From positions 248,334-312,333 of the forward strand of contig NZ_WWNE01000005.1 of assembly GCF_009909615.1 (NCBI RefSeq): DNA of 64,000 bases, given 5' to 3'. Numbering within the stretch: the stretch's first letter is position 1; every line of letters begins with the position of its first letter. This DNA is from Acidiluteibacter ferrifornacis. GTDB taxonomy: Bacteria > Bacteroidota > Bacteroidia > Flavobacteriales_E > Vicingaceae. This document shows, piece by piece, positions 58,911 to 63,062 of this stretch. Position numbers and translations under genes: made by a program. Under the pieces are notes generated by a model, which saw only the letters and a program-made list of their open reading frames with translations, was not told the origin of the DNA and ran no database searches.

Positions 58911-58920
58911 AATTTTATAA

Positions 58921-59063
58921 TTTTAAATTAATTCTTCAATCTATTATTCAATCCAAAAAAAAGAAGATTCACCATATCCTTTTAATTGAATGAATTACAG
59001 AAACCCGAAGATAGTATAAAAAACAATACAAAAAGAGTGGGAGCGTATGAAAATTAGTGGGTT
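58921..59063 (+). repeat. Left copy of the 140-bp direct repeat
   Basis: Begins TTTTAAATTA and includes CTATTATTCAATCC, AAACCCGAAGATAG and GAGTGGGAGCGTATGAAAATTA. It matches 62921-63062 with about a dozen differences and a few 1-2 nt gaps. Both copies lie in the same orientation and start 4000 nt apart. It brackets the accessory island. Confidence 0.9.
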
Positions 59064-59105: not shown

Positions 59106-59426
59106 TTATTTTTCATCTGCTTTGCCCAAAGCTTGCAATTTTTGTTCTAGCTCTTTCTTTTTAATCTTTTTTTCTAGAATCGTATTCTCTTTTTCTAACT
59201 GAGAGTTTTCATCTATTTCTAAAGTTGATTTTTTTAATAAAGTCCAAATAGAAAAAATTAAAGCAGGGATTAATGTCAAAATCAAAAGCAATAATTCTTG
59301 TTCTTTAAATTTCCAATAAATGATACCATTCGCAGTATTAAAAGGGTAGAGCCTTAAAATTAGAATTATGTGAATTCCACTTTGAATTAATGTCAAAAAA
59401 GCGAATATCTTATAGGTTATTTTCAT
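59106..59426 (-). CDS. Small membrane coiled-coil protein
   Basis: 106 residues from ATG 59426 (MKITYKIFAFLTL). The longest frame starts with a TTG at 59585 and would read through a palindrome, so I reject that extension. Two hydrophobic segments (IFAFLTLIQSGIHIILIL, LLLLILTLIPALIFSIWTLL) are followed by a coiled coil rich in Glu/Lys (EKENTILEKKIKKKELEQKL). No family recognised. It resembles in layout the other small membrane protein at 59.7-60.2 kb. Confidence 0.6.
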   Translation of the reverse strand: MKITYKIFAFLTLIQSGIHIILILRLYPFNTANGIIYWKFKEQELLLLILTLIPALIFSIWTLLKKSTLEIDENSQLEKENTILEKKIKKKELEQKLQALGKADEK

Positions 59427-59488
59427 TTTTTTATAATGTTGATCAACAACTTTATTATTTTCATTTATATTTAGCGATCGGAATTCTT

Positions 59489-59681
59489 TACAACGCCCAT
59501 GTAAGATTTGTTGGGAGCTAAGTAAAAGTAATATTTTCAGTTTACCAAGTAGCAAAAACTGCTTTGCAGTTTTGTAATTTATCAATCATTACGAAATCTG
59601 CAAACTGATTTTGTGGAGTTTCAAAAGAAAACGAAACCTTCGTAACCTACTGATTCCTAATTGATTTTACACCATGTTATG
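59489..59681 (-). repeat. Imperfect palindrome 2 (attC-like?)
   Basis: Outer arms TACAACGCCCATGTAAGATT (59489-59508) and GATTTTACACCATGTTATG (59663-59681) pair imperfectly. Inner arms ATTACGAA and TTCGTAA (about 59588-59595 and 59639-59645) also pair. On the minus strand the palindrome begins just past the stop of the previous gene (59693) with GCATAAC. About 190 bp, longer than normal attC sites. Confidence 0.5.
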
Positions 59682-59692
59682 CAATGCCTTTT

Positions 59693-60196
59693 TTACTCTT
59701 CTCTTAGTTTTTTTACTTCTAATTCGAGTTTCTCACATTCGAGTTCTGAAATCTTGTCATCATTCTTTTTAGACTTTTTCCATTTGAAAAAACCAAAACA
59801 GGCAAGTATGAAACCAATTGGGAAAAATATCCAAAATATGGTTCTATAAAATTTTATATAAGATTTTCTGATTTCTATTTCATCAGACATTCTTTCAGAT
59901 TCTAATTGCTTAATATTATTTTCATTATTAATTGATATTATTTCTTTCAGAATTAAATTGGCTGCTTCTGACTTACCTTCTTTTAAAATCCGTTTTTCAA
60001 GCTCTTGTACACTCTTGTAGTTTTGATTGAAGACAAACTCCAACTTTTTCGCTTCACTCTCTAATTCAGTTGTCTTTAATTCTAAATCTTGAGTTTCCTT
60101 CAGTGGGTAATACACAGTTAAGACCATGAGAAGCAATCCCATAGTTACAAGATATTTATAAAGATTTTCTGAGCCTGCTAAGAAGCTATTTTCCAT
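59693..60196 (-). CDS. Two-helix membrane coiled-coil protein
   Basis: 167 residues. One membrane helix near the N-terminus (NLYKYLVTMGLLLMVLTVYY), a long charged coiled coil (about 35-110), a second membrane helix (FYRTIFWIFFPIGFILACFGFF), and a second coiled coil in the cytoplasmic tail (DKISELECEKLELEVKKL). The start overlaps the preceding PUA-like gene by 11 nt, so they form a translationally coupled pair. Not recognised. The layout could suit a membrane-acting effector, which is inference. Confidence 0.7.
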   Translation of the reverse strand: MENSFLAGSENLYKYLVTMGLLLMVLTVYYPLKETQDLELKTTELESEAKKLEFVFNQNYKSVQELEKRILKEGKSEAANLILKEIISINNENNIKQLESERMSDEIEIRKSYIKFYRTIFWIFFPIGFILACFGFFKWKKSKKNDDKISELECEKLELEVKKLREE

Positions 60197-61112
60197 CTTT
60201 AAAAGGTTTTGTTAGTGCTGTTGTATCCATCTTTAAACTCTCAATAATTTTAGAAGTATTATCGAGGACTGTTCTATTATCATTAATAAAACTTTTAACT
60301 TCTGCGTCTTTTTCATCATCTAATCCGCCACACGAAGTTAAGAATATTAGATAAGCTAAAACTGCAAGACTCTTACCTTCTTTAATTAATTCTAATGCCC
60401 CTTTTGATTGTAAATTTATTTTTACAAAAAATTTATCATTAGATGGATCGGTAAATTTAAAGTCAGTATTAATATTCTCAACTAAGACTTCTATATTATC
60501 CATTAATTGTCTTAGTTCATCAAAGCTGATATTTTCTTCTTTCTCAATGTTTAAAACATAATGCGTATTGTCTCCTTTTTTATAAAGGTTTCCAATCACT
60601 CTATCAATATGAGGTGCATAATGATTTATACTACTAATAGCATGACGGTTAGATTTAACCTGATAAAAAATAGGGTTCAAATCGTCCATATATTTTACTG
60701 ATTCCCAAACAACTTTTCTTCGTTTTTTGAATGTAGAAACCGAGTTCTCCTCATAAGCTTTATCATCTGCAACCCTTCCAAAAGCAATTCTGTCTGAATT
60801 TCTACTTGGTATGACAATTACATCATCTTTTTTTAGGTTAATAAAAGTTTGAACTTTGTTATAAGCTCCTGAGACTTTAATTTTTCCTGAAAAATCACTC
60901 AAATCAACTTTTTCAGATATTGCAATTCGTTTCTTAATTACTTCTTCACTAAGATTTTTGAATTCATAAAGAGTAAAATAGTCCCACGAAATTGCTATAT
61001 ATCCTCCATCTATAAAATTTTCAAAGTGTTTGCCGTAGTCAGTTCTTACAAACCAATAATCGGAATCAGTAGCAACTTTATTGACTTTATCTGTTATTTC
61101 TTGGACTTTCAT
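60186..61112 (-). CDS. PUA-like-domain protein with internal membrane/lipobox segment
   Basis: 308 residues. The N-terminal 110 residues (YWFVRTDYGKHFENFIDGGY, IAISWD and KKDDVIVIPSRNSDRIAFGRV) look like the EVE/PUA-like domain found at the N-terminus of some restriction and modified-DNA-binding proteins (pattern WFVR.G..g..i..f...g.vaiGW ... gD.vv ... iGri). A middle mixed domain follows. Near residue 245 is EGKSLAVLAYLIFLTSCGG, a hydrophobic helix ending in an LTSC lipobox-like motif although it is internal. After it is an acidic C-terminal segment. It overlaps the membrane coiled-coil gene by 11 nt. Function unknown, a nucleic-acid or nucleotide sensor role is inference. Confidence 0.65.
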   Translation of the reverse strand: MKVQEITDKVNKVATDSDYWFVRTDYGKHFENFIDGGYIAISWDYFTLYEFKNLSEEVIKKRIAISEKVDLSDFSGKIKVSGAYNKVQTFINLKKDDVIVIPSRNSDRIAFGRVADDKAYEENSVSTFKKRRKVVWESVKYMDDLNPIFYQVKSNRHAISSINHYAPHIDRVIGNLYKKGDNTHYVLNIEKEENISFDELRQLMDNIEVLVENINTDFKFTDPSNDKFFVKINLQSKGALELIKEGKSLAVLAYLIFLTSCGGLDDEKDAEVKSFINDNRTVLDNTSKIIESLKMDTTALTKPFKDGK

Positions 61113-61148
61113 CTATTATTTTTTATTTAAATTAGTAGTTGTGGTTTT

Positions 61149-61280
61149 GCATAACGGCTCGGCTAAGAAACGTAGGGCTTTCGAGGCGATTCACTGTCCA
61201 CCGAAACCGAAGTTTGCAAAGTGAACGAACCTATCTGAAAGCCTTATCTGCCCTATGTTTTCTTAGCCATTGTTATGGGC
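61149..61280 (-). repeat. Imperfect palindrome 1 (attC-like?)
   Basis: Outer arms CATAAC (61150-61155) and GTTATG (61272-61277), then GGCTAAGAAA (61161-61170) and TTTCTTAGCC (61258-61267), CGTAGGGC (61171-61178) and GCCCTATG (61250-61257), and GGCTTTC (61176-61182) and GAAAGCC (61237-61243). About 132 bp, starting 6 nt after the stop of the lipoprotein gene on the minus strand. Length and layout fit an integron attC recombination site, and the ends resemble but do not match the RYYYAAC...GTTRRRY core. No integron integrase is in the window. Confidence 0.6.
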
Positions 61281-61285
61281 TGTTT

Positions 61286-62149
61286 TTATTTATTTAATCT
61301 TTCTTTTGCTTCAATTTGTTCGTTGTACCAATATTTTTGAGTAACAAAATCAAGAGGCCAATCTCTCATAGCTTTCCTTTTGATTCCATCTTCCGGAATT
61401 GCTTTCATGTATTGGTATGCAGCTTTTTGTTCACTGAGCCAATATTCTTGAGTCGTGTAATCATTCGGCCAATCCTTTTCGGCTTTCTCTTTCAATTTTG
61501 CGAAAATTTGTTTTTCTTCTTCCTGAGCCTTTCTTAATGTCTCTTCTTCTTCTCTTAGCAGTTTCTCAGATATTTGGTTTTCCATTTTCATGTCTGAAAA
61601 GGCAACAATATATCGTCCTAAAGTGTCATAGTAATCAACTCGCTTATTCCCTTTAAGCCAAAAGTATTTTGAACCTTGACTTCCGTTATCGTATCTATTG
61701 TCACCATAACTTTTTTCAAGCATTGTTAAAAGTTCAGATTCAATAGTTATTTCATTTTCTGTCGTTTTTTTTGAGTTCTCTGGATAAATATGATTTACCA
61801 CCCTGAATAACTCTTTATTCTCAAATGAGTATATCGAATTCGTGTATAAATTATAATTTGAAGCTCCCATTAAACTTACTATAGAACTATCATCATTCAG
61901 ACTAATTTGATTGTCATCTAAAAGTTTGGATATATTTTTATTAAAGTCTTCTTTTGTCATCCCGAAGTAAAATCCAAGATTCAACGAGTCGCTCTTAACT
62001 CCTGATTTTAAACTTTCGCTTTCAAGTTGCTTTGCTGTTTTTGAACTATTCAGTTTAGTTTCTACTTGGCTATCTTCTTCCTGATTTTTGTTAGAGTTAG
62101 AACAGCCTATTAGCATTAATATTGAAATTGATAGTAATATTTTTCTCAT
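61286..62149 (-). CDS. Lipoprotein with duplicated WPxDxxTQxYWxxEQ motif
   Basis: 287 residues. Lipoprotein signal (ISILMLIGCSNS). A mostly charged mixed alpha/beta body follows, then two C-terminal copies of a motif: DWPNDYTTQEYWLSEQKAAY and DWPLDFVTQKYWYNEQIEA. I believe this motif occurs at the ends of other unrelated bacterial proteins, but I cannot name the family. The stop is 6 nt before palindrome 1 (minus strand). It follows the DUF2971-like gene by 6 nt. Confidence 0.65.
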   Translation of the reverse strand: MRKILLSISILMLIGCSNSNKNQEEDSQVETKLNSSKTAKQLESESLKSGVKSDSLNLGFYFGMTKEDFNKNISKLLDDNQISLNDDSSIVSLMGASNYNLYTNSIYSFENKELFRVVNHIYPENSKKTTENEITIESELLTMLEKSYGDNRYDNGSQGSKYFWLKGNKRVDYYDTLGRYIVAFSDMKMENQISEKLLREEEETLRKAQEEEKQIFAKLKEKAEKDWPNDYTTQEYWLSEQKAAYQYMKAIPEDGIKRKAMRDWPLDFVTQKYWYNEQIEAKERLNK

Positions 62150-62155
62150 GTCGTT

Positions 62156-62839
62156 TCAATTGTTTGTGGTTGTTATTGATTTTCGTTTTCCCTTAAACTC
62201 AGTCTGAAGCATTTCGTGAGTTCGTGAAAGAAAGCATATGTTTTTTATTGAACCGATTTCAATAAAAATTTCTTCTTGCTTACGCTCGGTCTTAATTAAA
62301 ATTCTATGTTCAAATTGATGTTGTAAATCTTGTGTCTTTGTAAATAAAGTTGCATCAACAGTACCTTCTTGCTTAAAATTTAAATACGATGTTAATTTAC
62401 CTTCAAATGGATAATTCAGCTCTGTTAGACTGCTTTTCACTCGGCCTAAGAATATATTAGGTTCTTTTATTACCAACGCATATTCTCCAAATTCCATCAT
62501 TCGATCATCTATTTTGTGGATGTCTGTCTTGTTGAAACAATCAGAAGTTAAAGCGTATGAAGAAAAGCAAAAGAATGGGTCGTCCGTGAAATTAATAATT
62601 GTTCCTTTTGTGTTAGGAACGGGTGTGAATGAGCCTTTACCCAAAACTGGATGGTTATATTCTATTTTAGAAAATTGTCCATTTACAATGTTAAATGCTC
62701 CTTCGAACTTATCACCACGTTCTTTTTGTATTGATTGAGCAAAGGAATCTAATGCACCAAATCTCATTTGTCCTTTGTGCATCAGACTTTCTAAATGTTC
62801 CTTTTCTCCAAACTTTATTAAAGCAAATATCTTAGTCAT
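62156..62839 (-). CDS. Cytoplasmic accessory protein, possibly DUF2971-like
   Basis: 227 residues, no signal peptide or membrane helix. The N-terminus (IFALIKFGEKEHLESLMHKG, then MRFGALDSFA and ERGDKFEGAF) is like the opening of DUF2971-related proteins, which have been found near defence and phage genes. The resemblance is loose. First gene of the island's minus-strand run. No catalytic motif is apparent. Confidence 0.6.
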   Translation of the reverse strand: MTKIFALIKFGEKEHLESLMHKGQMRFGALDSFAQSIQKERGDKFEGAFNIVNGQFSKIEYNHPVLGKGSFTPVPNTKGTIINFTDDPFFCFSSYALTSDCFNKTDIHKIDDRMMEFGEYALVIKEPNIFLGRVKSSLTELNYPFEGKLTSYLNFKQEGTVDATLFTKTQDLQHQFEHRILIKTERKQEEIFIEIGSIKNICFLSRTHEMLQTEFKGKRKSITTTNN

Positions 62840-62890
62840 TTATTTGAATATGGTTGTTTGCACGGTTTTTTAATAGCCCAAAACAAGTTG

Positions 62891-62915
62891 ATATGACGGA
62901 CAAAGTGCGTCATAT
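62891..62915. promoter_or_regulatory. Palindrome upstream of the island's first gene
   Basis: ATATGACG (62891-62898) and CGTCATAT (62908-62915), a perfect 8-bp inverted repeat with a 9-nt spacer, 52 nt upstream of the start of the DUF2971-like gene and just beside the right direct repeat. A possible operator. Confidence 0.4.
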
Positions 62916-62920
62916 TCCTA

Positions 62921-63062
62921 TTTTAAATTATTTCTTTAAATCTATTATTCAATCCAAAAAAAAGAAGATTCATCATCTCCTTTTAATTGAACGAATTACG
63001 AAACCCGAAGATAGTATAAAAAACAATACAAAAGAGTGGGAGCGTATGAAAATTAATGGGTT
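62921..63062 (+). repeat. Right copy of the 140-bp direct repeat
   Basis: Same orientation as the left copy (58921-59063), sharing the TTTTAAATTA start and the central AAACCCGAAGATAGTATAA block. Differences are scattered, so the copies are older than a very recent duplication or under weak constraint. Confidence 0.9.

Follow-up and report, generated by a model that had tools for sequence, protein, structure and literature searches.

The palindrome at positions 61149-61280 of a 64,000-nucleotide stretch of the Acidiluteibacter ferrifornacis genome (contig NZ_WWNE01000005.1, positions 248,334 to 312,333; hereafter the window) is very likely an attC-like recombination site that closes a gene cassette in an integron-like system. 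No experiment was done, and recombination itself is inferred. The system very likely works as integrons do, yet it fails one defining test: its integrases lack the insert carried by IntI, and for that reason it falls outside the integron family as now defined.

The earlier note on this stretch had described outer arms CATAAC (61150-61155) and GTTATG (61272-61277) with long inner arms, had placed the element a few nucleotides after a stop codon as in gene cassettes, and had remarked that the core ends fit RYYYAAC...GTTRRRY only in part. All three claims held, the element lying 5-6 nt beyond the stop codon (61288-61286) of a 287-aa gene on the minus strand. The note had read the plus strand; genes and cassette are encoded on the minus strand. 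Two points were corrected: no protein of this genome passes the family cut-off for IntI, and the core rule is GTTR instead of GTTRRRY. The attC-like reading is supported by tags, same-strand arrays, a shared cassette with sharp borders, attI-like sites and a tyrosine integrase. A lack of similar palindromes would have counted against it, but these do occur elsewhere. Folded as single-stranded DNA, the palindrome was equalled by 0 of 200 shuffles on the plus strand (z -3.0) and by 2 of 200 on the minus strand (z -2.7). Rfam at gathering thresholds gave no matches in the window.

The palindrome belongs to an array read along the minus strand, with the following features:

63013-63006, minus strand: promoter-like TATCTTCG, upstream of the leader ORF, judged by eye
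62923..62976, minus strand: leader ORF of 17 codons, MMNLLFFGLNNRFKEII, its stop codon just ahead of the attI-like palindrome; expression only inferred
62884..62922, minus strand: attI-like site, 1 of 13 such sites in the genome
62875..62884, minus strand: opening core of cassette 1, GTTTTGGGCT, complementary at 9/10 bases to the left arm of attC-like site 1
62156..62839, minus strand: cassette 1 gene 1, 227 aa; no matches in NCBIfam, Pfam or PADLOC
61286..62149, minus strand: cassette 1 gene 2, 287 aa; no matches in NCBIfam or Pfam, lipoprotein-like start by eye
61146..61281, minus strand: attC-like site 1, with left arm, conserved stem-loop and right core
60186..61112, minus strand: cassette 2 gene 1, 308 aa; PADLOC candidate defence family PDC-S02 (E 3.7e-16)
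59693..60196, minus strand: cassette 2 gene 2, 167 aa; no matches in NCBIfam or Pfam
59485..59685, minus strand: possible attC-like site 2, 201 nt, left arm ATTGCATAAC, right core GTTGTAAAGA
59106..59585, minus strand: ORF beyond site 2, possibly part of a third cassette; closing site not seen

In the attI-like site, the palindrome ATATGACGCACTTTGTCCGTCATAT (62915-62891) is followed by CAACTT and then by the supposed crossover G|TT (62884/62883). Behind it lies cassette 1 (62883-61155), which holds two genes and ends in attC-like site 1, with left arm AGCCCATAAC (61281-61272) and right core GTTATGCAAA (61155-61146). The left arm AGCCCATAAC is complementary at 9/10 bases to GTTTTGGGCT, 1.6 kb upstream. 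The right core GTTATGCAAA doubles as the opening core of cassette 2, a two-gene cassette running from 61154 to about 59494, and is in turn complementary at 9/10 bases to ATTGCATAAC of possible site 2. The stem of this second site is weak and its end was called unclear by the program; we set its right end from a length of 200-201 nt and from the similar right half of other long sites. Both tag matches in the window are at 9/10, a level reached in 5-9% of control trials, and they therefore rest on the genome-wide pattern, the attI-like site and the conserved stem. An empty site was sought without success: in none of G001, G009 and G019 does the right flank of the array adjoin the same gene (no synteny). 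We also observed that the promoter-leader stretch (62919-63062) is repeated directly at 58918-59063, 4.0 kb off at the far end of the array and without the palindrome, possibly as a trace of the origin of the platform or of a deletion.

The genome-wide pattern starts from BLAST, which gave four matches to the palindrome in its own genome, itself counted, and a fifth of 26 bases that is part of a full element (L044). Matches were found in 16 of 60 genomes, own genome counted; several of these count on 24-40-base matches only (E 1e-5 to 1e-3), and some short matches (L023, L026) look like chance. A search of the own genome with the exact core pattern returned nothing, but with the gap limited to 70-100 bases it could not have picked up the element in the window either, making this result uninformative.

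In gene orientation, each copy follows a stop codon with seven variable bases and AAC, then a conserved stem-loop; GTT and a further seven variable bases lead on to the next gene. Within one copy, the left arm and the right core agree at only 3 to 9 of 10 bases. The left arm fits better the GTT-plus-seven upstream of its own gene; where the match is exact, the two are separated by 0.4 to 1.8 kb. Within 3 kb upstream, an exact partner was found for 17 of 27 elements and a partner at ≥9/10 bases for 20 of 27, compared with 3 and 41 of 674 cross-locus controls, respectively; two of the three exact control pairs must be the homologous L040/L045, which have a common tag. The other 7 elements have no tag partner, one of them having just 98 bases upstream. 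These 27 elements were chosen by eye among pattern matches, nearly all with 0-1 mismatches, in a search that covered 20 stretches around selected BLAST matches rather than all matches, and decayed or odd copies (L052:4425 and 7447, L055:6729, L057:7117, L059:6292) were omitted. The match of an arm to the start of its own cassette suggests that the cassette was once circular, since the two halves of the site match and insertion would part them to the start and the end.

One homologous cassette of ~700 bases could be compared between the own genome (G000) and G007. Over seven consecutive 100-base blocks, counted from the opening GTT and finishing with the palindrome, the two copies agree at 85-94/100 bases, whereas the next block falls to 41/100 and only 28/120 bases agree upstream of the GTT. 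From this we infer that the cassette moves as a whole unit of gene plus palindrome, with the caveat that its borders were seen in a single pair. These data bear on a rival explanation, a MITE- or REP-type repeat that is moved by a transposase and lands after genes by chance. Such repeats are likewise palindromic, dispersed and moderately conserved. However, the homologous unit takes in the gene and starts at the upstream GTT (one pair, two genomes), the tags match across 0.4-1.8 kb, and arrays keep to the same strand; a MITE/REP origin is all but excluded.

Returning to the cassette reading, we delimited 24 attC-like sites solely through exact tags at either end, leaving the stem out of account. 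They were found in 13 of the 30 loci given to the search, which was limited to sites of up to about 190 nt and required an A after and a C before the tags; the site in the window, at 9/10, is not among them. The halves of these sites pair with a mean stem score of 12.3 (least 7.0), compared with 6.1 for swapped halves. An earlier RNAalifold run on an alignment of 22 elements had supported only 7 pairs, 1 of them with changes on both sides, and it was then that pairing was retested without alignment on the tag-delimited sites. The folds of the element in the window, L040 and L041 have a two-part stem with an unequal spacer. Site length is 131-141 nt in 21 of 24 and 58-66 nt in 3 of 24, longer sites being excluded by the search; another type in the own genome measures 200-201 nt. 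The core has R at position 4 in 24 of 24 sites but at position 5 in only 8 of 24, for which reason we write it as GTTR and not GTTRRRY (the GTT was part of the search). As a separate observation, the length of 131-141 nt is kept despite widely differing sequences (L155 and other arrays), as if length itself were constrained. We had considered the last sites of several arrays as half-sites with terminators; this was dropped when a right half turned up at 180-181 nt in four or five of them.

The attI-like sites were found by searching the own genome for the pattern TGACGCACnnnGTGCGTCA; tolerating up to 3 mismatches, this gave 14 occurrences, against 2 of a backwards control pattern. Thirteen of the 14 lie in like surroundings, and these are the 13 attI-like sites; in all of them CTTGTT comes next, followed by a differing tag. 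A cassette arm inside 3 kb matches the tag at ≥9/10 bases at 12 of 13 sites and exactly at 9 of 13, leaving one site without a partner. With swapped tags these levels were reached in 14/156 and 1/156 trials, and with shuffled tags in 5.3% and 0.15%; a control search for the tag in direct instead of complementary form gave 10/10 at 1 of the 13 sites. From these sites we followed 26 cassettes at ≥9/10, 9 of which lack a clear closing palindrome, and their ORFs of ≥70 aa run mostly along the cassette direction (29, with 5 opposite). Dispersed attI-like sites are established for the own genome only.

A tyrosine recombinase gene on C14 has one of the 13 attI-like sites at its stop codon, and another site (C15:49.7k) comes after a remnant of the integrase C-terminus. 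Eight of the 12 integrase-free sites (L060, L061, L063, L065-L068, L072) have ~200 bp of upstream sequence in common, which includes the promoter-like TATCTTCG and, at most of the eight, a leader ORF such as MKTTIYPFLNDNKRLINVFVLDFKTISSFIEIKN. By the ORF rule, six sites have a related ORF of this kind, 33-41 codons long and ending before the palindrome, and a seventh has a 15-codon form. That these leader and promoter stretches express cassettes is an inference, as we have no expression data.

The C14 integrase is a tyrosine recombinase of 382 aa, and beyond its attI-like site are two cassettes with tag matches of 9/10 and then exact. Relatives 52-59% identical occur in 13 of 60 near genomes; across the class, 16 of 395 genomes hold a match at E 1e-90 or better, and both counts include the own genome. 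Named relatives at 53-54% identity are five Aquimarina loci; ten weaker ones are mostly from other Bacteroidota, and 2 of the 15 are labelled as bacteria outside the phylum. Integrase frames are interrupted in G022 and G269.

A canonical integron, or a leftover attC cluster (CALIN), moved by a true IntI is another rival. It would have the same cassette layout, and the class does hold a canonical IntI (G177). The earlier note had proposed a search for IntI, and in the own genome nothing passes the TIGR02249 cut-off, while in the class 1 of 395 genomes has a protein that does. The C14 integrase scores 193 bits against TIGR02249 (cut-off 265), and its best NCBIfam match is NF040815 XerA at 210 bits (cut-off 220). 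In alignment to IntI4, 67 residues of IntI are omitted and 24 of the integrase. The catalytic K motif and HxLRH are 58-59 residues apart in 51 of 51 integrases and 100 apart in two IntI, and an IntI insert of about 41 residues is missing from the integrases compared; the catalytic R, K, H, R, H and Y are kept in all 51 (23 close and 28 more distant, after 3 fragments under 250 aa were dropped). An insert-free integrase adjoins attI-like sites and cassettes, and the cores are GTTR, not GTTRRRY, so that a true IntI is a very unlikely mover. The IntI of G177 (L145:3295-4542) has 415 aa and an N-terminal extension.

In a tree the 23 close integrases cluster with 100/100 support; one Xer and two IntI sit on long branches, the placement of IntI is unsettled, and L090 and L180 were left out. 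A structure predicted for an Aquimarina relative from 11 sequences (mean pLDDT 78.9, pTM 0.53) matches XerA 5hxy best (Z 22.4, rmsd 13.9, 257 aligned) and the archaeal Xer 4a8e next (Z 20.6, rmsd 10.3, 246 aligned), with XerH 5jk0 (Z 19.6, rmsd 3.5, 262 aligned) tied with IntI4 2a3v (Z 19.2, rmsd 3.9, 258 aligned). Foldseek placed XerA first and IntI4 second. The first 100 residues were barely tested. By sequence and model, the enzyme is an Xer-like tyrosine recombinase that carries additional sequence at its N-terminus and is missing the IntI insert in which the I2 helix lies.

The order of integrase, attI-like site and cassettes recurs in relatives. An inverted repeat scoring ≥7 lies beyond the stop codon in 14 of the 16 close rows (of 18) with enough sequence behind it, the other two scoring 4 and 6, and in 4 of 25 other rows; L096, listed at 50%, is a fragment and was excluded from the close rows. 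This repeat varies between genomes, and GTT comes next. Among 25 close integrase loci, 16 have a cassette at ≥9/10, three of them doubtful (L149, L083, L085). Nine have no partner, of which six have <700 bases behind the integrase and three have 2.5-8.3 kb. In the complete single-contig genome G383, seven cassettes follow one another, each with an exact match. At 29 loci with more distant integrases, we found 10 chains with an exact match (two doubtful, L171 and L089), 4 with 9/10 only and 15 with none; the Prolixibacteraceae record L094, also with a more distant integrase, holds a chain of ten cassettes, 6 of them exact. At four loci with more distant integrases (L162, L163, L168, L175), the attI-like stretch is of another kind and lies ~100 nt past the stop codon; in L162 and L163 it ends in TATAAACAA or TATAAACTA, with GTT next.

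It could also be argued that the cassettes are real but are moved by another enzyme, such as XerC/XerD, the recombinase at attI being a passenger. The genome has further tyrosine recombinases of Xer size, and the association is positional. Against this, in most of the close relatives open to examination the attI-like site comes immediately after the stop codon, and palindromes vary among genomes, yet the own palindrome recurs 13 times. We consider the passenger reading very unlikely.

Each cassette opens with (G)TT and seven variable bases and carries one or two genes; at its close stand those seven bases in reverse complement, then AAC, then a palindrome, long and imperfect, ending in G. The C14 recombinase is the presumed integrase. 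It may cut at G|TT where the palindrome folds as a single strand, and cassettes would be closed into circles in which the two halves of the tag pair. Circles would then be inserted at the integrase's own attI-like site and at the 12 others across the genome, all served from C14, with promoters upstream of these sites presumably driving cassette expression. The matching tags, sharp borders, same-strand arrays and the attI-like site directly behind the recombinase stop are shown by the sequence. Recombination, the choice of strand and the circles are inferred, and the integrase is linked to attI by position only. The single-strand step is the weakest, because the I2 helix, which is held to let IntI use folded attC (PMC7790495), is absent here.

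As in integrons, a tyrosine recombinase adjoins an attI-like site, the cassettes of an array share one strand, a single foldable site with a two-part stem and unequal spacer stands after the gene, the R''/R' tags match within the cassette, and some of the cargo is defence genes. Unlike in integrons, the IntI insert is missing from the integrase, which is longer at its N-terminus and reads the same way as the cassettes, with the attI-like site behind its stop (attI function being inferred); the core is GTTR with 10-nt tags, and 13 attI-like sites are dispersed in the own genome. The catalytic domain and spacing are those of XerA/XerC/XerD/XerH. These differ in that the present enzyme is linked by position to cassette arrays and has the extra N-terminal part, and that no dif-like site was recognised (without a dif model). 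With regard to the 28-bp dif-like sites that flank Xer/dif modules, what was seen here are borders that share GTT and variable tags. In Treponema denticola, for example, the integron is reverse-oriented, with integrase and cassettes read in one direction as here; such integrons possess a true IntI.

The phylum is among those listed with integrons (PMC2426708, PMC8618304, PMC9668308), and one complete integron is named in Bacteroidetes (PMC9024848). In the literature searched (including PMC8138268) we did not find the system described; preprints and most subscription journals were outside the scope, and novelty is unproven. A bolder reading, which we consider likely, is that this is an integron lineage of the Bacteroidota's own, in which Xer-like integrases that never had or have lost I2 recombine folded attC-like sites. 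One integrase would serve the 13 platforms of this genome; several of these have promoter-like sequence and a short leader ORF, and their cargo includes defence genes. Searches that demand the IntI insert would miss such integrases. If the system works as read here, gene capture by cassettes is commoner in the phylum than thought and has been masked by the definition of the integrase. It also bears on the origin of integrons: acquiring the I2 helix is regarded as what gave the enzyme access to folded single strands (PMC7790495), and a cassette system without the insert makes this step testable in nature.

The system bears on the spread of defence genes as well, because some of its cassettes hold CBASS, restriction-modification and other defence genes. 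We compared ten cassette proteins of the own genome with Pfam, and eight of these plus two proteins of the window with PADLOC; they were picked for their recognisable look and are no census of the cargo. Among the matches are two type II restriction enzymes, one of them accompanied by its methyltransferase, as well as a CBASS cyclase and NucC nuclease, a GmrSD-like protein (HEC-05) and a DndB/DpdB-like protein. The CBASS cyclase and the NucC effector lie in one cassette (L043:5754-7252, C15) as a two-gene unit.
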